This document shows positions 28,024 to 40,248 of a DNA stretch of 64,000 bases, in pieces. Each line of letters begins with the position of its first letter. The first letter of the stretch is position 1. The stretch is from Kineosporia mesophila. GTDB taxonomy: Bacteria; Actinomycetota; Actinomycetes; Actinomycetales; Kineosporiaceae. The position numbers and the translations under genes are program-made. The DNA is taken from positions 1 to 64,000 of the forward strand of contig NZ_JAJOMA010000017.1 in the NCBI RefSeq assembly GCF_021129235.1. Reading direction: 5' to 3'. The notes beneath the pieces are model-generated. The model did not search any database. It was not told the origin of the DNA and saw only the letters and a program-made list of their open reading frames with translations.

Positions 28024-29175
28024 TCAGGGTTGGGCCGGGCCGTCCCCGGTGAAGAGGCCGACCAGACCGTGAGGGGTATCGGCCCCGAAGATCAGGTCGA
28101 GGGTCTCGTGCGCGGCGACGGCCTCCTGTTCGGCGCGGGGGAACATGACCTCCTCGTAGGCGGCGAGGGCGGTCTCGAGGTCGCCCGGGTGCGCCGCGAT
28201 CGCCTTCCCGAGCTCGGCCCCGTCGAGCATCGCGAGGTTGGCTCCCTCGCCCCCAGGCACGGTGACGTGCGCGGCGTCACCCAGGAGGGTCACCCCCGGG
28301 CGGCGTGACCACCGGTGGCGGTCGGGCAGCCGGTGGATGCTGCGCAGGACCGGAGCCACGTCGGCGTCGGCGATGAGGGAGACCAGTTCCGGCGCCCAGC
28401 CGTCGAACTCGGCCGCGATCGCGGCCTTCGCGGCGCGGGCGTCGGTGAAGTCGATGGCCTCGAACCACGCCGGTGGGCGTTCCAGGACCACATAGGTGTG
28501 GATGCGGTTGCCCGCCTCGCGGTGGGCCAGGAACCCGGTGCCGGGGGTCAGCACGTACAGGGCGCCGGCGCCGACCGCCTCGGCGGTGGCCGCGTGGCGT
28601 TCGTCCACGTCGTGCAGGAAGGTGTCGACGTAGCTCAGGCCGGCGTAGGTCGGCTCCTGCGGCGAGAGCAGCGCCCGGACCTTCGACCAGGTGCCGTCGG
28701 CACCCACGAGAACGTTCGTGGTGACGGTGCTTCCGTCCGCGAAGGTCAGCTCGTACCGGCCCGGGCCGGCCGGGGTCGCCTGGCGGAGCTTCTTGCCCCA
28801 CCGCACGGTCCCGGCCGGCAGGGAGTCCAGCAGGATCCGGCGGATGTCGCCGCGCAGCGCCTCGGGGCGGGTCAGGGAACCGTCGTCGGGCAGTTCGGCC
28901 AGGACCGTGCCGTGCGGGTCCACGACGCGCTGGGCGCCACCGCCCCGGTGAATGATCGCCCGGTACTCCGGCGTCAGCCCGGCGATCTCGAGCGCGAGCT
29001 GACCGTTGTGCTCGTGCAGATCCAGCTGCCCGCCCTGGGTCCGGGCCTGCGCGCAGGCATCGGCGTCGTACACGGTGACCGGGACGCCGTGGCGATGCAG
29101 GACGCGGGCCAGGGTGAGCCCGCCGAGTCCGGCACCCACGACGACAACGGGACGAGCGGCAGCAGTGATGTCCAT
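28024..29175 (-). CDS. FAD-dependent monooxygenase, TetX-like
   Basis: 383 residues. FAD site VVVVGAGLGGLTLARVL (G14-x-G-x-x-G), then DG-type motif LVGADGTWSKVRALL and the C-terminal VTLLGDAAHVTVPGGEGANLAMLDG, the GDAAH..PP/PGGEGANLA form seen in TetX and other aromatic hydroxylases. GGQLDLHEHNGQLAL also matches TetX-type enzymes. Possible roles are hydroxylation or inactivation of a polyketide-like compound. GAGGG six bases before ATG 29175. Divergent from a TetR repressor whose operators overlap its promoter. Confidence 0.85.
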   Translation of the reverse strand: MDITAAARPVVVVGAGLGGLTLARVLHRHGVPVTVYDADACAQARTQGGQLDLHEHNGQLALEIAGLTPEYRAIIHRGGGAQRVVDPHGTVLAELPDDGSLTRPEALRGDIRRILLDSLPAGTVRWGKKLRQATPAGPGRYELTFADGSTVTTNVLVGADGTWSKVRALLSPQEPTYAGLSYVDTFLHDVDERHAATAEAVGAGALYVLTPGTGFLAHREAGNRIHTYVVLERPPAWFEAIDFTDARAAKAAIAAEFDGWAPELVSLIADADVAPVLRSIHRLPDRHRWSRRPGVTLLGDAAHVTVPGGEGANLAMLDGAELGKAIAAHPGDLETALAAYEEVMFPRAEQEAVAAHETLDLIFGADTPHGLVGLFTGDGPAQP

Positions 29176-29194
29176 GGTGATCCCTCTTCGTCAC

Positions 29195-29239
29195 ATTGGA
29201 CCACCGGTCCAATGGAGTGAGTGTTGGACCAGCGGTCCA
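29195..29239. promoter_or_regulatory. Twin TetR operators
   Basis: ATTGGACCACCGGTCCAAT (29195-29213, perfect 8-3-8 palindrome) and TGGACCAGCGGTCCA (29225-29239, 6-3-6) share GGACC-N3-GGTCC, with centres 28 bp apart. They lie between the monooxygenase start (29175) and the TetR start (29260), ideally placed to repress both. Confidence 0.8.
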
Positions 29240-29259
29240 TCTCTGTCAAGCTGGTTCCC

Positions 29260-29940
29260 GTGACCAGCCCGGACCAGCGCAGCCCGCGCCGCAGCGACGC
29301 CCTCTCACGGGACCGGATCGTCGAGGCCAGCATCGAGATCCTCGACACCGCGGGCGAGAGCGGCCTGACCGTGCGGGCTGTCACCACCCACCTGGCGACC
29401 GGGCGGGGTGCGATCTACCACCACGTGACCGGCAAGGACGAGCTCCTGGCCGCCGCCGCCGCCGGCATCATCGACCACGTCGTGACCGGCACCGGCCCCG
29501 GCGACGAGCCCCGGAAGGCCCTGCGGGCCCTGGCCCTGAGGATCTTCGAGGCGATCGACGCGCACCCGTGGGTGGGCACGCAGCTGTCCCGCGACCCGTT
29601 CCAGCCCGCCGTCCTGCGGATCTGGTCGGGCGTCGGAGCCCACCTGCAGCGCCTGGGTGTGGACGGGCCGGCCCGCTCCGATGCCGGCGCCGCCCTGGTC
29701 AACTACGTGCTCGGGGCCGCCGCCCAGCACGCGGCGGGCGCCCGGCACGCCACCGACGACGCCGCCCGCCAGGCATTCCTGGACACCCTGGCCACCCGGT
29801 GGGCCCAGTTCGACGGCGAGGCGTCCGGATCGGCCTCACACCTGCGCGAACACGATGACCGGCAGCAGTTCCTGGCCGGGGTCGACATCTTCCTGGCCGG
29901 CCTCAGCCGTCCGGACTCCGACGCATCAGGGGACATCTGA
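29260..29940 (+). CDS. TetR-family regulator (TetR_C-type)
   Basis: 226 residues from GTG 29260. HTH: SRDRIVEASIEILDTAGESGLTVRAVTTHLATGRGAIYHHVTGKDELL. The all-helical ligand domain follows (LRIFEAIDAHPWVGTQLSRDP). Expected to repress the divergent TetX-like monooxygenase and itself until a drug-like effector binds. A longer frame from 29221 would place coding sequence over the second operator, so 29260 is preferred. Confidence 0.87.
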   Translation: MTSPDQRSPRRSDALSRDRIVEASIEILDTAGESGLTVRAVTTHLATGRGAIYHHVTGKDELLAAAAAGIIDHVVTGTGPGDEPRKALRALALRIFEAIDAHPWVGTQLSRDPFQPAVLRIWSGVGAHLQRLGVDGPARSDAGAALVNYVLGAAAQHAAGARHATDDAARQAFLDTLATRWAQFDGEASGSASHLREHDDRQQFLAGVDIFLAGLSRPDSDASGDI

Positions 29941-33140: not shown

Positions 33141-36100
33141 GTGACCTTGACCGAGACGACAGCTCGCCCTGGCGACCAGAGCCCCCAGATCGTCGGATTC
33201 TTCCCCGGGCTGGGCAGCCGAAGCCACCACCGCGATCTCGACCGCGACCACCTGGACGCGAACGACGCCGTCACGAACGACATCTACCGTTCCGCCGCAA
33301 CAGTTCTCGGCTTCCCGGCGACACCCGAGCGGCTCCTGCTGCGCGCCGGGGACCTCCCACCGACCCGGCTGGCCCAGCAGAGCCTCATCGGGGCGGGCGT
33401 GCTCGTGCACGGCCTGGTGCTGCGAGCGCGGCTGATCGGCCAGGCCCGCCACCAGGGTCTGCCCGCCCAGTTCGTCGCCTACACCGGGGAGAGCTTCGGC
33501 ATGCTCACCGCGGCGGTCGCGGCCGGGGCGCTGAGCGTCACCGACGGGGTCCGCACGGCCGCCGCGTTCACGCCACTGCTGCTGATGGCGGCCGAAGGTG
33601 CCCAGCCCGAGGACGATTTCACCGAGCGCCTCGCCCGCTACCGGCCCGGGCCGGCCGGGTCGGGCCTGGTGGCCGAACCGCATCACGTGATCGGGCTCCG
33701 GGGCGCCCCGGAGGTCCTGGAGCACGTCCTGGAGCAGGCCCGGGCCGAGTTCGGTCCCGACGTCGAACTGCACAAGGCCTACTCGTGGCGGCAGGTCAAC
33801 GTCTACGTGCCGGTCCCGGCCCGCGACGCCTTCGACCGGTTCACCGGACGTTTCCCGGAGCTACAGGTCACCGATCTGAAGCCGCCCACCCGGTTCCTGG
33901 CCCACTCAGCGCGAATGCGCCCGGCGCGAGCGGCGTTCGAGCGATTCCTGAATGAAGAGGGCATCACGCTCTCGGCCCCCTCGGTGCCGCTCGTCCCCAA
34001 CCACGGCACCGGCCTGATCCGGACCGCGGACGAGGTCAGGGAGGCGCTGGGGGCCATGGTCGACCAGGTGATGGACTCCCGCTCGACCGTGGAGATGCTC
34101 CAGCAGATCGGCCCGGACCTGGTCGTGGAGTTCGGCCCCGGCGCGCGTTCGCTGCACCTGCTGGCCGACAACCACGTACCGTTCCCGTCGACGGCCTACA
34201 CCGGGGCCGCCGAGGAGACAGCGGAACTGCTCGAGGGGCTGGAACTCTCGGCGATCCTGCGGCGGGAGCTGAGGCACCGCGCCGGGCCCGGGCCGCTGGA
34301 TCCGGTCCGGCGGCTCTTCCGGGCCACCGCACGATCTGCGTTCCTCGATGGCTGGGTGCGCCACACGGTGAACCAGGTCGTCGCGGACGAGCTGCTCACC
34401 GATGCGCACGCCCCGCTGCCCGGCACGGTGGATCACCGGCTGCTGGCCGTCCTCCAGCACACGCTGGCCTACCGGGACGTGGTCGATCTGCGCCGGGGCG
34501 AGATCGTTCTGCAGGCCCGGCTGAAGCGGGACGTCTTCGGCCAGATCCACGGCGTCGGCCGCCCGTACTCGGAATTGCAGGTGAGCCTGCCCGACGGTGA
34601 GACCGAGTTGCGGACGACCTCGCGTGTGCTTCATCCCGAGGTGGTCGTCCATCTCCTGGACGCGCCGGGGCACCGCGCCGGCGACGGTCACCTCCTCGGC
34701 TCCGTGCTCCGGCAGGAACCCCCCGCCCGTGAGCAGGTCCACGCCGTGCTCGCCGCCGCCGGCCTGAACGACGACGTGCTGCACGCGGGCGGGGCGAGGG
34801 CCGGGGCCGCGCGGCGCCTGCTGCTGCCCCTGGCCCTGTTCAGGACGCTGGGGCGGCATCGCCCGGCCTTGCTGGCCCAGACCGACCACTACCTGGCCGC
34901 GCTCGGCCGGGAGGGATGGCTGGCCGCCCTGGTCCTGGCCGGGTCGGCGGACAGCGCCTCCGCTCTGGCCGTGACCGCGGGCGCGGACGTCGAGGCGTTC
35001 GTCGCCGGTCTGGGCGACGCCCAGACCCCGCTGCTCGCGCCGAGCGGTACCCCGGTGCGCTCAGGCCGTGACCTCCGGGCGGTGACCCGCGGCATCCTGC
35101 GGCCGGAGGGCGGGAACAGCGGCCCGCTGCCTGTGCGTCTCAACGGCGACTGCCTGGTGATCTCGCTGGGACACCCGATCACCCCCGAGGACGTGGACGC
35201 CCGGCCCTTCCGCGGGCAGACGCTCGCGGTCACCGACCCGCACGACATCGCCCGGCGGGGGACCTGCCCGGACCTGGACGACTTCGAGAACCGGGTCCTG
35301 CGGTCGGTGACCGCCGAGAGCCGCAGCGTGCTGCGCGAGGCCCGCCAGCGCCGGGTGCTGATCAGTTCGGTGAACACGTTCCTGGCACCGGGCGAGAGTG
35401 TGCTGGGGTTCGGGGACGGGGGGAGCGAGTCCCTGACCATCTTCCTGGAACGGCCCGGCGAGAAGGACACCGTGGTCCGGAAGATCCTCAGCCCGGCGCT
35501 GATCACGGCCCGCTGGGAGGACGACGGCACCGGGGTGATGCTGCCCCCGTTCGCCAAGGCCCGCAAGCAGGCCGAGTTCCTGCAGGCGCTGCCCGAACCG
35601 GTGCGCTCGCGGTTCCCCCGCGTGACCCACGCCCAGGAGCGGGTGGTGCCGGTGCCGGAGCACCTGCGGGAGGGCCGCCCGGACACCTTCACCGAGATGG
35701 TCTACGAGATGAGCTACGTGCCCGGGGTGGAGGTGAGCCGGTACGTGGCCCGGGAGACACCGCCGCCGGCGGTCGTGGCCCGCCTCTACGAGGTGATCTT
35801 CTCGACCCTGCACCGGGAGACGCACACGGTCGGGCGGGTGCCGGCGCCGGGTTCCACCCTGGAGACCTCGTACTTCCGCAAGATCGAGGACCGGCTGAAC
35901 CTGTGCCGCCGGACCGCTCCCCTCACCTTCTCGCCGGATCTGCTCGACACCGAGCACATCGTCATCAATGGCCGCCGCTACCTGAATCACGGGCCGCTGC
36001 TGCGCCGCTTCCGCCAGAACGCCGTGTTCCGCAGAGTGCTGGAGCCCCGCTGGCACGCCCTGGTGATGGGTGACACCAACACCGAGAACATCAAGATGGC

Positions 36101-36818
36101 GCAGGTCGAACCATTGCGCCGGGCCGCCCGGCTGATCGCCGACCAGGCATCACCGGCCCGGATCGCCGCCGCCCTGCACGACATCACCGCCGGGTCGATC
36201 GGGCTGATGTTCCTTGATCCGCGCGCCATCGGTTTCGACTCCGACGGGGCGGTCACCCGGGACGACCCGATGTACGACAACAAGCCGTGGCACAACTCGA
36301 TCGGGCACTACGACGAGATGCACCACGAGCACTTCGATCTCGTCGTGGACGCCGGGCCGGGCCGGACCCCCTCGATCGACGTCGCGTTCCACGACGACAA
36401 CCCCTACCGGCGTTCCTACCGGGTCCGGGACGTGGCGGTCACCGGGGCGCCGGTGCATCCGCACGCGCCGGAGGGGATGGAGGACCACTTCGCCGCCGTC
36501 ATGACCTCGGCCCACGGCCTGGATCGCCCGGGTTCTTCGTACCTGCGTGAGGACCCGCACTGGCTGGTGCGTTTCGTCTTCATGATGGGTACGCACTTCA
36601 CCGCCATGCCGCCCTTCCACTTCTCGTCCGAGCCGGACGGCTCGCTCTCGGACTCCCCGCAGAGCCAGCGTCGGCCCGTCGCCATCTACGGCGAGGGCGT
36701 CCAGTGGCTCAACTGGGCCCTGGAACTGCTGGAAGGAACCCGTACGCAGTTCCTGGGGGTGTGTCCCGCGGCCCTGCCGGGTGAGACCGGCCACCTCGCC
36801 GACCCCGCCGCAGCCTGA
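33141..36818 (+). CDS. Acyltransferase-kinase fusion protein (FabD/PKS-AT-like plus APH-like domain), unknown pathway
   Basis: 1225 residues from GTG 33141 (AGGG six bases upstream). N-terminal domain, about 15-400, is a malonyl/acyl-CoA:ACP transacylase fold: GFFPGLGSR at 19-27, AQQSLIGAGVLVHGL, nucleophile S118 in YTGESFGML, H255 in FLAHSARM, and a PNHGTG segment. The middle (about 400-720) is not recognised. The C-terminal domain is protein-kinase/APH-like: lysine K781 in VVRKILS, hinge EMVYEMSYVPG, catalytic D978 in VMGDTNTENIK, metal-binding D1026 in FLDPRAIG, then DDPMYDNKPWHNSIGHYD as in capsule-linked kinases. Presumably transfers an acyl group and phosphorylates the same small molecule or carrier. 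No ACP, KS or NRPS is nearby. Operonic with 36850. Confidence 0.8.
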   Translation: MTLTETTARPGDQSPQIVGFFPGLGSRSHHRDLDRDHLDANDAVTNDIYRSAATVLGFPATPERLLLRAGDLPPTRLAQQSLIGAGVLVHGLVLRARLIGQARHQGLPAQFVAYTGESFGMLTAAVAAGALSVTDGVRTAAAFTPLLLMAAEGAQPEDDFTERLARYRPGPAGSGLVAEPHHVIGLRGAPEVLEHVLEQARAEFGPDVELHKAYSWRQVNVYVPVPARDAFDRFTGRFPELQVTDLKPPTRFLAHSARMRPARAAFERFLNEEGITLSAPSVPLVPNHGTGLIRTADEVREALGAMVDQVMDSRSTVEMLQQIGPDLVVEFGPGARSLHLLADNHVPFPSTAYTGAAEETAELLEGLELSAILRRELRHRAGPGPLDPVRRLFRATARSAFLDGWVRHTVNQVVADELLTDAHAPLPGTVDHRLLAVLQHTLAYRDVVDLRRGEIVLQARLKRDVFGQIHGVGRPYSELQVSLPDGETELRTTSRVLHPEVVVHLLDAPGHRAGDGHLLGSVLRQEPPAREQVHAVLAAAGLNDDVLHAGGARAGAARRLLLPLALFRTLGRHRPALLAQTDHYLAALGREGWLAALVLAGSADSASALAVTAGADVEAFVAGLGDAQTPLLAPSGTPVRSGRDLRAVTRGILRPEGGNSGPLPVRLNGDCLVISLGHPITPEDVDARPFRGQTLAVTDPHDIARRGTCPDLDDFENRVLRSVTAESRSVLREARQRRVLISSVNTFLAPGESVLGFGDGGSESLTIFLERPGEKDTVVRKILSPALITARWEDDGTGVMLPPFAKARKQAEFLQALPEPVRSRFPRVTHAQERVVPVPEHLREGRPDTFTEMVYEMSYVPGVEVSRYVARETPPPAVVARLYEVIFSTLHRETHTVGRVPAPGSTLETSYFRKIEDRLNLCRRTAPLTFSPDLLDTEHIVINGRRYLNHGPLLRRFRQNAVFRRVLEPRWHALVMGDTNTENIKMAQVEPLRRAARLIADQASPARIAAALHDITAGSIGLMFLDPRAIGFDSDGAVTRDDPMYDNKPWHNSIGHYDEMHHEHFDLVVDAGPGRTPSIDVAFHDDNPYRRSYRVRDVAVTGAPVHPHAPEGMEDHFAAVMTSAHGLDRPGSSYLREDPHWLVRFVFMMGTHFTAMPPFHFSSEPDGSLSDSPQSQRRPVAIYGEGVQWLNWALELLEGTRTQFLGVCPAALPGETGHLADPAAA

Positions 36819-36849: not shown

Positions 36850-38352
36850 ATGGTTCGGCAAACTTCCGCGGCCGCCGGCCCGCGGCCGGGGACACCGACC
36901 GCGATCGGTCCCCTGACGGCCGAGCGGCGCCTGATCGCCACTCCGTGGAGCCGCATGGTGCGGGCCCTGGGACTCGGCCAGGACCCGACCGGACCGGACC
37001 CGCAGACCGGGCAGTTCGTCCGTGAGACCTTCGCCGCCCTGGTGAGGCGGGTCGGCGGCGGCAACCCGTACACCGTCTTCTGCGCCGGCCTGGCCGATCT
37101 GGTGCTGGAGGCCACCGCACCCGGAGGGCCCGCCGGACAGGAGGCCGGGCGGCGGCTGCCCGGCCTCCTGGCCGCCGCCGGGGCGGAACCGAACGCCTAC
37201 TACCGGCTGACAGCGCTCTGTCTGCTGGCGGAGTCCTGGGTCAAGTGCGGGCTGGACTCCAGGGCGCTCACCCAGGGCGGTCCGGACCTCCCGGGGCTGA
37301 TCCTGGCCACCCTGGACCAGATCCGCCCCGATCAGATCCAGGACGAGAACCGCGGCCGTCACGGGCAGTACGAGCGGCTGTCGGCCAGCACCTCGGCCTT
37401 CCTGGCCGTCGGGCACCTGGGGGTCGCGCACCGCCTGGTGCAGGATCAGCGTGACCGGGTGCGCGAGGCGCTGGGCCTGCTCGAGCAGATCCCGGCACCG
37501 TTCTTCCGGGGTCGCGGCGGATCGATGCTGATGTCGGTGACCGCTGCGCTCGGCCGCCCAGACCTGGTGAACGGGCAGGACCCGGACGGTGGCCCCGACC
37601 ATCTGCGCGCCACGCTGGACTACCTCGACCGGGCCGGCGAGATCAACCTCCCGCCGGCCTTCCCCAGCCCGATGACCCCCGCCTTCGGGCAGATCTACCC
37701 GCTCCTGACCATGCTCAACGCGGTGGCCGCGGTGGGCCGGCCGCAGATCCTCGACGAGGGCCGCGACCGCCTGGCCCAGGCCGACGAGCTGTACCGGCGG
37801 CTGGCTCCCGCCGAGCGCACACACATGGGCCTGTACCTCCTGATCGCACTGCACAACCTGGGCCGTCTCGCCGAGCGCCGACCGGAATGGGAGGACGAGG
37901 TGACCGCCCTGGTCGGGCAGTGGCGGGAGGGCGACCCGGGCGCCGACTACTTCCTGCACGGCATCTCCTACCCGTACCTGATCGAGACGGCCCGCCTGAC
38001 CGGGCGCACCGACCTCCTGCCCGAGGCGATGCTCGTCCGCCTGGCGGGCGCCTCCATCGGCCTGGAGCGATCGGCGGAACACCGGGCCAACCGGCCCTAC
38101 CCGTTCAGCTACGCCGTCTCCACCCTCGGGGCCCTGAACCGGCTGGACCTGCTGAGCACCCCGGACCGGCGGTACGACGGGCAGAGCGCGACCTCCTGGG
38201 TGATCGACCGGCTCTCACCGGGCGGCCGGGCCGAGGGCAACCGCCTCTACATGCTCGACCACGCCCTGGTGCACCTGGCCCTGCGTCAGCGCGACCCCGC
38301 CCGGGCCGAGCCGGCCCTGTTCGCGGGGTTCCGGTTCGCCGCCGATCGGTAA
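36850..38352 (+). CDS. All-helical protein of unknown family, partner of the acyltransferase-kinase
   Basis: 500 residues; GGAG six bases before ATG 36850, which is 31 bp after the fusion gene, so the two are co-transcribed. I do not recognise the family. It is mostly alpha-helical with no signal peptide or membrane helix; tryptophan/tyrosine-rich helices (AYYRLTALCLLAESWVKCG, YDGQSATSWVIDRL, DHALVHLALRQRDPARAEPALFAGF) suggest a helical toroid or solenoid. No DDxxD, DxDD or P-loop is visible. It could be an enzyme with an alpha/alpha barrel or a scaffold for the upstream enzyme. Confidence 0.7.
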   Translation: MVRQTSAAAGPRPGTPTAIGPLTAERRLIATPWSRMVRALGLGQDPTGPDPQTGQFVRETFAALVRRVGGGNPYTVFCAGLADLVLEATAPGGPAGQEAGRRLPGLLAAAGAEPNAYYRLTALCLLAESWVKCGLDSRALTQGGPDLPGLILATLDQIRPDQIQDENRGRHGQYERLSASTSAFLAVGHLGVAHRLVQDQRDRVREALGLLEQIPAPFFRGRGGSMLMSVTAALGRPDLVNGQDPDGGPDHLRATLDYLDRAGEINLPPAFPSPMTPAFGQIYPLLTMLNAVAAVGRPQILDEGRDRLAQADELYRRLAPAERTHMGLYLLIALHNLGRLAERRPEWEDEVTALVGQWREGDPGADYFLHGISYPYLIETARLTGRTDLLPEAMLVRLAGASIGLERSAEHRANRPYPFSYAVSTLGALNRLDLLSTPDRRYDGQSATSWVIDRLSPGGRAEGNRLYMLDHALVHLALRQRDPARAEPALFAGFRFAADR

Positions 38353-38454: not shown

Positions 38455-39669
38455 ATGCCTATCGGCCTTTTCGCCCTGGCCCTCGGGGGGTTCGGCATCG
38501 GCCTCACGGAGTTCGGGATCGTCGGCCTGCTCCCGGAAGTGGCTGCCGACACCGGAGTCTCGGAGTCGGTCGCCGGCTATCTCGTCTCCGGCTACGCCCT
38601 CAGCGTCGCCTTCGGGGCCGTCGCCCTGAGCGCCGCGGTGATCCGGATGGACCGCAAGAAGGTCCTGGTCGGACTCATGCTCCTGTTCATCCTGGGCAAC
38701 TTGATCTCCGCCGTGGCCCCCGGGTACGGCATCCTGCTGGCCGGGCGGATCGTGGCCGCGCTGTGCCACGGTGCCTTCTTCGGGATCGGCGCCGTGGTCG
38801 CCGCCGACATGGTCGAGCAGAGCCGTAAGGGTGGGGCGATCGCCCTGATGTTCGGCGGGCTGACCCTCTCGAACGTGCTCGGTGTCCCGTTCGGCACCCT
38901 GCTGGGCCAGCAGCTGGGCTGGCGCGCCACCTTCTGGGTGATCACCGCCCTCGGCGTCGTCACGATGATCGGCATCCAGGCTCTTGTCCCCGCCACCCCG
39001 GCCCCGCAGGACACCCATCTGCAGCGCGAACTGGCCGCCTTCCGGCGTCCCCAGGCATGGGTGTCCCTCGCCGTCAGCACCCTGGCCTTCGCCGCCGTCA
39101 TCGGCCCCTTCACCTACATCGCCTTCACCCTGACCGAGGAGACCGGCTTCGCGACGTCCACCCTGCCGTGGCTGCTGGTCCTCTTCGGGGTCGGCACCTT
39201 CATCGGCAACTACGTCGGGGGCCGCGCGGCAGACCGCAACCTGGACCGGACCCTGCTGACCGCCCTGGCCGTCCTGACGGTGGTTCTCGGCGTCTTCGCC
39301 CTTCTGGTGGACAGCAAGCCCGCCGCCGTCGTCCTCCTGCTCCTCATGGGCGCGGTGGGCCTGTCCGCCGCTCCCGGCCTGCAGGTGCGCATCATGGTTT
39401 ACGCCCCGGACGCACCGACGGTTGCCAGCGGCGCGAACATCGCCGCCTTCAACATCGGCAACGCGATCGGCGCCTGGATCGGGGGCCTGACGATCGCCGC
39501 CGGCCTGGGCTTCGCCTCTCCCCTGTGGGTCGGCGCCGCGCTGGCCGTGGGTGGCGTGGGGGCTCTGCTCGTCGGGGCGGCGCTCCCCCGCGAGGCCACG
39601 GCCGGCGAGGCCGCCACCGTGGAGGAGCCCCTCCCGGCTCTGGCCCGCCAGCCCGAATCCGCAGGCTGA
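38455..39669 (+). CDS. MFS transporter (DHA1, AraJ/YdhP-like)
   Basis: 404 residues, 12 predicted membrane helices. Starts LFALALGGFGIGLTEFGIVGLLPEVAADTGVS, the usual AraJ/NepI opening, with motif-A-like VIRMDRKKVLVGLMLLF between helices 2 and 3 and a GVPFGTLLGQQLGWRATFW motif in the N-half. Proton-driven efflux of small molecules (sugars, nucleosides, drugs). It lies 102 bp after the unknown helical gene; product export for that locus is a reasonable guess. Followed by a strong hairpin and a MarR gene. Confidence 0.9.
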   Translation: MPIGLFALALGGFGIGLTEFGIVGLLPEVAADTGVSESVAGYLVSGYALSVAFGAVALSAAVIRMDRKKVLVGLMLLFILGNLISAVAPGYGILLAGRIVAALCHGAFFGIGAVVAADMVEQSRKGGAIALMFGGLTLSNVLGVPFGTLLGQQLGWRATFWVITALGVVTMIGIQALVPATPAPQDTHLQRELAAFRRPQAWVSLAVSTLAFAAVIGPFTYIAFTLTEETGFATSTLPWLLVLFGVGTFIGNYVGGRAADRNLDRTLLTALAVLTVVLGVFALLVDSKPAAVVLLLLMGAVGLSAAPGLQVRIMVYAPDAPTVASGANIAAFNIGNAIGAWIGGLTIAAGLGFASPLWVGAALAVGGVGALLVGAALPREATAGEAATVEEPLPALARQPESAG

Positions 39670-39726: not shown

Positions 39727-39783
39727 CACTGGGAGAACGACGCGTCCGCCCCGAGGACGTCCGTGGACGAGGAGGCTCACACC

Positions 39784-40248
39784 ATGTCGCTGCCTGACGA
39801 GAAGGTCGAGGCGCTGGTTCACGGCTGGCGCCAGCTCGCCGTCCTTCACACCCGGATCGCGGCACGCCTGGAGCAGGTCCTGCAGGGGCAGTTCGAGCTG
39901 AGCGTCAACGAGTACGGCGTGCTGGAACTGCTGTCCCGGCAGGAAGAACACCACCTGCGCATGGGTCAGCTGGCCACCGCCATGGCGATGAGCCAGGCCG
40001 CGACCACCCGGCTGGTCACCCGCCTCGAAGACCGGGGCCTGCTCCGGCGCTGCCTGTGCCCGGACGACCGGCGGGGCATCTACAGCGAAGCCACCGGCGA
40101 GGGCGCGGCCCTGCTCGCCCACGCGCGCCAGGAGCACAACGCCGCCCTGGAGAAGGCTCTGTGCGAGGCCCGGGAGGCCAACCCGGACATGGCTCATCTG
40201 ATCGAGGCCATCGGGACCGCCGAGCGGCAGCCGGTGCTGGTCAGCTGA
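39784..40248 (+). CDS. MarR-family transcriptional regulator
   Basis: 154 residues from ATG 39784 (GAGGAGG eight bases upstream). Winged HTH core: LSVNEYGVLELLSRQEEHHLRMGQLATAMAMSQAATTRLVTRLEDRGLLRRCLCPDDRRGIYSEATGEG. Probably represses the upstream MFS exporter or a redox/drug response; the two cysteine-adjacent residues (LCPDD) are not a known sensor. 3' end overlaps the convergent MazG-like gene by eight bases. Confidence 0.88.
   Translation: MSLPDEKVEALVHGWRQLAVLHTRIAARLEQVLQGQFELSVNEYGVLELLSRQEEHHLRMGQLATAMAMSQAATTRLVTRLEDRGLLRRCLCPDDRRGIYSEATGEGAALLAHARQEHNAALEKALCEAREANPDMAHLIEAIGTAERQPVLVS

Follow-up and report, generated by a model that had tools for sequence, protein, structure and literature searches.

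The window examined here, a 64,000-nucleotide stretch of DNA from the actinomycete Kineosporia mesophila (contig NZ_JAJOMA010000017.1, positions 1 to 64,000), carries a gene in which an acyltransferase (AT) and a kinase are joined in one protein. This AT-kinase gene (33141..36818, plus strand) is open throughout and encodes 1225 amino acids from a GTG start at 33141 that is preceded by GAGAGGGA. Behind it on the same strand lie a gene for a 500-residue protein that we call the partner (36850..38352; ATG start preceded by AGGAG), a gene for a 404-residue exporter of the major facilitator superfamily (MFS; 38455..39669) and a gene for a MarR-family regulator (39763..40248). The AT-kinase protein contains the motifs FFPGLGSR, GESFG (S118), AHS (H255), VRK (K781), GDTNTENIK (D978) and FLDPR (D1026), and every motif that an earlier note on this DNA had cited for the open reading frame (ORF) is present at the residue it gave. 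The note also held that an AT fold and a kinase fold stand on one chain with both sets of catalytic residues intact, which agrees with 36 of 36 distinct full-length sequences, with the match to the FabD profile and with the AlphaFold2 and Foldseek results described below. Its view of a single protein needs to be widened, as the fusion stands but is accompanied by a conserved helical partner and often by an MFS pump.

The FabD-fold AT domain (residues 15-350; 33183..34190, plus strand) contains the S118/H255 dyad and has F143 at the position of FabD Arg117; the HMMER alignments to FabD stop one residue short of this site, and F143 was placed there from that end. Its relationship to FabD is detected by phmmer (E=1.5e-6) and by comparison of the AT family profile with FabD (E=7.3e-11). 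Pfam Acyl_transf_1 matched weakly, in 4 of 17 members of the AT family, and the AT domain of the window's own 1225-residue protein has no Pfam match. Across a conservation set of 36 distinct full-length sequences (39 aligned, 3 duplicates removed), S118, H255, K781, D978, N983 and D1026 are invariant, and so are F143 and E117, the residue that gives GES rather than GHS (36/36 in each case). Mean pairwise identity in the same set falls from 64% in the kinase to 51% in the AT domain and 36% in the region between them.

According to two papers (PMC11775670, PMC10054515), Arg117 of E. coli FabD binds the malonyl carboxylate, and the acyl hydrolases of trans-AT polyketide synthases (PKSs) have Gln, or less often other residues, at this site and replace GHSL by G(A/S/V)SL. 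We have ruled out by its residues that the AT domain is a malonyl loader of the FabD/PKS kind, because the malonyl-binding Arg is replaced by an invariant Phe and GHS by GES. Judged from sequence, these two features argue for a non-carboxylated acyl group as the substrate. The earlier description of the domain as a transacylase of FabD/PKS type is thus upheld for the FabD fold and the Ser-His dyad but not for the malonyl type. With the malonyl ATs of this kind (PF00698, TIGR00128 and MdcH, TIGR03131) the domain shares the fold at the profile level, FPGxGS, GxSxG and the dyad, whereas GES, Phe at the Arg117 position, the fusion to a kinase and the absence of an assembly line set it apart. The trans-AT acyl hydrolases (PksD/PedC), as those papers portray them, also have the dyad, have lost the malonyl Arg and do not keep GHS; unlike them, the window's protein has Phe for Gln, is fused to a kinase and has no trans-AT PKS. 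Two annotated relatives of the AT-kinase gene on plasmids carry the label ‘ACP S-malonyltransferase’ (ACP, acyl carrier protein).

The kinase-fold domain (residues 735-1213; 35343..36779, plus strand), which bears K781, D978, N983 and D1026, is the most conserved enzymatic part of the protein. Structure prediction, a check that the earlier note had proposed, was applied to residues 365-1213 (AlphaFold2, mean pLDDT 86.9), and Foldseek recovered the kinase fold from this model, with probability 1.00 for most of the 50 matches listed. These matches are modest (E 7.6e-4 to 6e-3, target TM-scores 0.19-0.46), and protein kinases (PknB, PDK1, SRPK1 and others) make up most of them. The best target TM-scores among the matches listed belong to APH(3')-Ia (up to 0.46), NahK (0.44) and MTNK (0.41), the last presumably methylthioribose kinase, compared with values up to 0.40 for protein kinases. 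No kinase family in Pfam or NCBIfam, PF01636 included, matched any of 46 members at E<=0.1, and the domain has no sequence match in the PDB. Five Pfam families that fell on the middle-kinase part, each in one of the 46 members, were treated as chance. The predicted fold and the Lys/Asp/Asn/Asp set fit the APH-like kinase superfamily, whose small-molecule kinases (APH(3')-Ia, methylthioribose kinase and NahK) share the fold and these catalytic residues. Unlike them, the domain has no Pfam APH match, extends over about 470 residues and carries long invariant C-terminal motifs of its own, DDPMYDNKPWHNSxGxYDxxH and MGTHFxAMPPFHF, which suggest one fixed ligand. It probably constitutes a family of its own, absent from the libraries searched.

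Between the two enzymatic domains lies a middle region of about 370 residues (365-735; 34233..35345, plus strand), the least conserved part of the protein. Residues ~550-640 faintly resemble the nucleophile elbow of an AT domain, a weak match (hhalign probability 12%, P 0.0024), and the FabD profile gave only weak matches in the region (E 0.25-0.82). A second, degenerate AT was considered for the middle region on this basis and is not claimed.

The partner matches no family in Pfam, NCBIfam, PHROGs or PADLOC; stray Pfam matches to SidE_PDE (E=2.4e-4), Glyco_hydro_88 and DnaB_bind, each in one of 47 members, were treated as chance. Its model (pLDDT 92.5) is all-helical with a repeat-like fold and matches no PDB chain at E<=0.001, and the PDB chains ranked first comprise helical repeat proteins together with a designed alpha/alpha toroid. 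Of 56 distinct loci from four phyla, 53 have the partner beside the kinase by tblastn (56/59 with three duplicates counted). The neighbourhood search that the earlier note had suggested finds the AT-kinase fusion in relatives. Three loci are partnerless: L020 stops just past the kinase, and L042 and L046 are without a partner. The kinase and partner profiles match the same 2 of 396 Actinomycetota genomes and never occur apart (E<=1e-5). In Myceligenerans salitolerans a second copy of the partner, in the opposite orientation, adjoins the unit (L024, 15715-17433), and Actinoplanes sp. NBRC 103695 has the partner upstream, not downstream, of its AT-kinase gene (L034, 8458-12523).

The composition of the unit varies among these loci. 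In nine (seven cyanobacterial, one from a gammaproteobacterial and one from an alphaproteobacterial metagenome-assembled genome) the kinase has no adjacent AT, a call that refers to the locus only, since two of the upstream stretches are short (L049, L053) and the search did not extend to the remainder of these genomes. An alignment of six of these AT-less kinases gives 50-52% identity to the window's kinase, and the partner is present in most of the nine loci. In eight further loci, four from acetic acid bacteria and four from actinomycetes, one ORF encodes the AT-middle part and another the kinase. Because the AT can be missing from the locus and the AT-middle part can be split from the kinase, the kinase and the partner look like the core of the unit. 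Loss of the AT within the AT-less branch seems the simpler reading, because AT-bearing Omnitrophota and an actinobacterial group flank this branch at the root of the kinase tree, a midpoint root that need not be the true one. In three Candidatus Omnitrophota loci (L027, L040 and L041) the AT, the kinase and the partner lie within one very long ORF.

Several further arrangements were noted. The Omnitrophota ORFs reach 3130 and 3224 residues with an extra N-terminal part, L040 being cut by the end of its contig, and the partner is repeated in tandem within those of L027 and L041. An apparent fusion of the main gene with the partner in Glycomyces (L009) was ruled out, as its 1837-residue ORF is in a different frame from the main gene. 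The ORFs are interrupted in L054, L043 and L031, and their pieces were not joined. Amycolatopsis pithecellobii RM579 has two copies of the unit on separate contigs (L026 and L029), one with a single main ORF and one split. Seven of the AT-less loci (L044, L045, L047-L050 and L053) have a molybdenum (Mo) hydroxylase nearby, the large subunit of which carries, as judged by eye, a leader like those of twin-arginine translocation; several of them additionally have genes for an SRPBCC protein and for an exporter of the YdcZ type.

The MFS exporter is nearest to the Cmx/CmrA and AraJ models, its best NCBIfam matches, and scores 332 bits against Cmx/CmrA, short of the cut-off of 400. Among the AT-bearing loci, 28 of 47 have a gene of this Cmx/AraJ type within 2.5 kb of the unit, compared with none of the 9 AT-less loci. 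The first count was 29/50 before we dropped L056, L057 and L058, which are stretches of L008, L003 and L007, and the 47 include L055, whose contig starts inside the kinase so that its AT is unseen (46 without it). A control excluded the pump as a marker exclusive to the unit, as 183 of 388 genomes of the class carry the subfamily (E<=1e-60); being common anyway, the pump is recruited rather than diagnostic. Relatives of the window's MarR-family gene lie near the MFS gene in L004, L024 and L028. An ArsR homologue occurs within the fetched stretch in 19 of the 47 AT loci (20 before one duplicate was dropped), and other loci hold MarR, TetR or, by eye, LysR genes.

Among the neighbouring genes, a homologue of the gamma-butyrolactone synthase AfsA lies within the fetched stretch in 11 of 16 Streptomycetaceae loci, and six loci of this AfsA-bearing group also have an NAD-dependent epimerase-like gene. 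The gene clusters common to at least three loci, inspected by eye, revealed no ketosynthase (KS), nonribosomal peptide synthetase (NRPS) or other enzyme that would build a scaffold. Only L011, L036 and L042 share an acyl-CoA-ligase-like gene. The locus of Streptomyces sp. NBC_00503 looks biosynthetic, with 3-dehydroquinate synthase II, aminodideoxyheptulosonate synthase and an adenylate-forming enzyme nearby. Elsewhere in our window, a divergent pair at 28024-29940 encodes a TetR-like regulator and an FAD monooxygenase that resembles the Tet(X) and HpxO models below cut-off. Scans of the window with Rfam and for tRNAs and promoters returned nothing, and one terminator-like site was found, which is below the shuffle mean.

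The unit is rare and appears to move horizontally, to judge from its distribution and from sequence comparison. Of 394 genomes of the class, 4 have full-length matches, the own genome among them, and of 58 relatives only the own genome does. Three of 72,556 plasmid records carry the unit, one of them a 12-kb plasmid of Acinetobacter larvae (L066, NZ_CP018141.1) that holds little else beyond replication, toxin-antitoxin and hypothetical genes. On this plasmid the MFS gene is represented by pieces only, and the main gene spans the start of the record with no gene listed under it. In a kinase tree of 30 rows the topology does not follow the phyla: Gammaproteobacteria appear at three places, and Halomonas pairs with Cellulomonas (support 100/99). 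Because the distances of the AT, middle, kinase, partner and MFS parts correlate (r 0.77-0.95 over six pairs, with 0 of 2000 permutations as high for each), the parts of the unit probably travel together, and shared host descent may add to the correlation.

The absence of KS and ACP genes nearby, to which the earlier note had drawn attention, is borne out on the 166.8-kb contig, in which adenylation domains were not searched for: there is no PF00109 match for a KS at E<=0.001, and the lone PF00550 carrier-domain match (32.6 bits, over the cut-off), at 72747, falls beyond the window and is separated from the gene by 36 kb. A precursor of a ribosomally synthesised and post-translationally modified peptide (RiPP) was considered and set aside, as no small ORF recognisable as conserved turned up in the 900 bases around the unit. 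That scan covered ORFs of 18-110 residues at 60 loci (3 duplicates included); its 12 largest similarity clusters look like ends of known genes or out-of-frame readings, and a more distant or very divergent precursor is possible. No Cys or His that could serve as a LanC zinc ligand stands in those columns of the partner that are invariant or nearly so. Of a lanthipeptide-type RiPP system, in which a kinase is combined with an alpha toroid, neither the precursor gene nor the LanC Cys/His ligands were recognised here. An origin in phages or in defence was rejected for want of a match in the searches, including the PADLOC anti-phage defence models at E<=0.01.

The explanation that we favour, though with less than even confidence, is that the unit is a self-contained cassette which acylates and phosphorylates one low-molecular-weight compound and exports the product, more probably for biosynthesis than for detoxification. 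The AT would take a non-carboxylated acyl group from coenzyme A (CoA) or a housekeeping ACP onto S118 and hand it to an acceptor, and the kinase would phosphorylate the same acceptor or its precursor, with the two C-terminal motifs perhaps forming the walls of a pocket that fits a single small molecule. The partner might bind or finish the intermediate, and the MFS pump would export the product. We infer one enzyme that both acylates and phosphorylates a single molecule. Biosynthesis of a diffusible compound is favoured because the Streptomycetaceae units often adjoin gamma-butyrolactone genes and because no scaffold-building enzyme was recognised among the genes that those loci share. A fuller version, to which we give somewhat less credence, is an undescribed, mobile and compact pathway that has a malonyl-excluding FabD-fold AT and a kinase of its own family on one chain, a helical partner of new fold, an exported diffusible compound and no PKS, NRPS or RiPP scaffold gene.

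Several observations weigh against a biosynthetic cassette. An MFS gene was not seen adjoining 19 of the 47 AT loci, some of which have short flanks; its subfamily is common without the unit, and MFS relatives 58-65% identical occur in genomes where no full unit was found. L042 and L046 have room for a partner yet lack one. Regulators of the MarR, ArsR and LysR types fit an inducible detoxification operon equally well. The AT-less loci lie near genes for Mo hydroxylase (7), alcohol dehydrogenase (7) and amidohydrolase (6), as found with small-subunit, dehydrogenase and amidohydrolase queries, and this neighbourhood looks more like aldehyde conversion or detoxification than biosynthesis.

The strongest alternative, which we consider somewhat unlikely, is a detoxification or self-resistance cassette directed at a toxic small molecule, which the kinase (with the partner) and the AT would inactivate, the MFS pump would also expel and the regulators would sense. 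The chloramphenicol exporter model Cmx/CmrA as the nearest to the pump, the ArsR, MarR, TetR and LysR genes, the sporadic occurrence of the unit with a small plasmid among its carriers, and the Mo hydroxylase and alcohol dehydrogenase beside the AT-less pair all speak for it. However, FabD-fold enzymes are known for thioester-bound substrates and are not known to acylate drugs. The gamma-butyrolactone genes in 11 of 16 Streptomycetaceae loci favour biosynthesis, just as the Mo hydroxylase neighbourhood of the AT-less branch favours detoxification.

It is improbable that the AT merely strips wrong acyl groups from a carrier or a small molecule, as a proofreading hydrolase, and leaves the main chemistry to the kinase. 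A Ser-His dyad combined with the loss of both the malonyl Arg and GHS is what the papers cited above describe for trans-AT acyl hydrolases, but the hydrolases described there carry Gln (other residues being less frequent) and are part of trans-AT PKSs, whereas here Phe is invariant and the contig has no KS. A slightly poorer prospect still is a regulatory or structural pair, in which the substrate of the kinase is a protein, perhaps the partner, and the AT serves as a sensor of acyl-CoA or acyl-ACP. The predominance of protein kinases among the 50 Foldseek matches listed and the all-helical, repeat-like partner would suit such a pair; the top target TM-scores among those matches nevertheless go to small-molecule kinases (0.46 versus 0.40, a small difference), and the invariance of the long motifs near the C-terminus suggests that the ligand is a single, fixed one. 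Least credible by far is the loading of an acyl group onto a phosphorylated carrier, an alternative raised in the earlier note, as the AT fold needs an acyl donor and an acceptor but PF00550 detects no carrier closer than 36 kb, and the 900 bases around the unit held no small ORF that was recognised as conserved.

We favour a small-molecule cassette, and whichever product or target it serves, the system is apparently undescribed: the two component folds are known, but none of the libraries searched contains the architecture, the kinase family, the partner or the cassette. The fusion that the earlier note had pointed out likewise belongs to no family in these libraries, and a literature search aimed at the unit, from which subscription papers were outside the coverage, found no description. 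The partner adds a high-confidence model without a clear PDB match. The annotation of the two plasmid relatives that have one conceals the unit as an ‘ACP S-malonyltransferase’ next to a ‘hypothetical protein’. If the unit is a detoxification system, it would represent a new inactivation chemistry moving between phyla. If it does make a compound, it would represent a class of biosynthetic locus that is missed by searches for scaffold genes.

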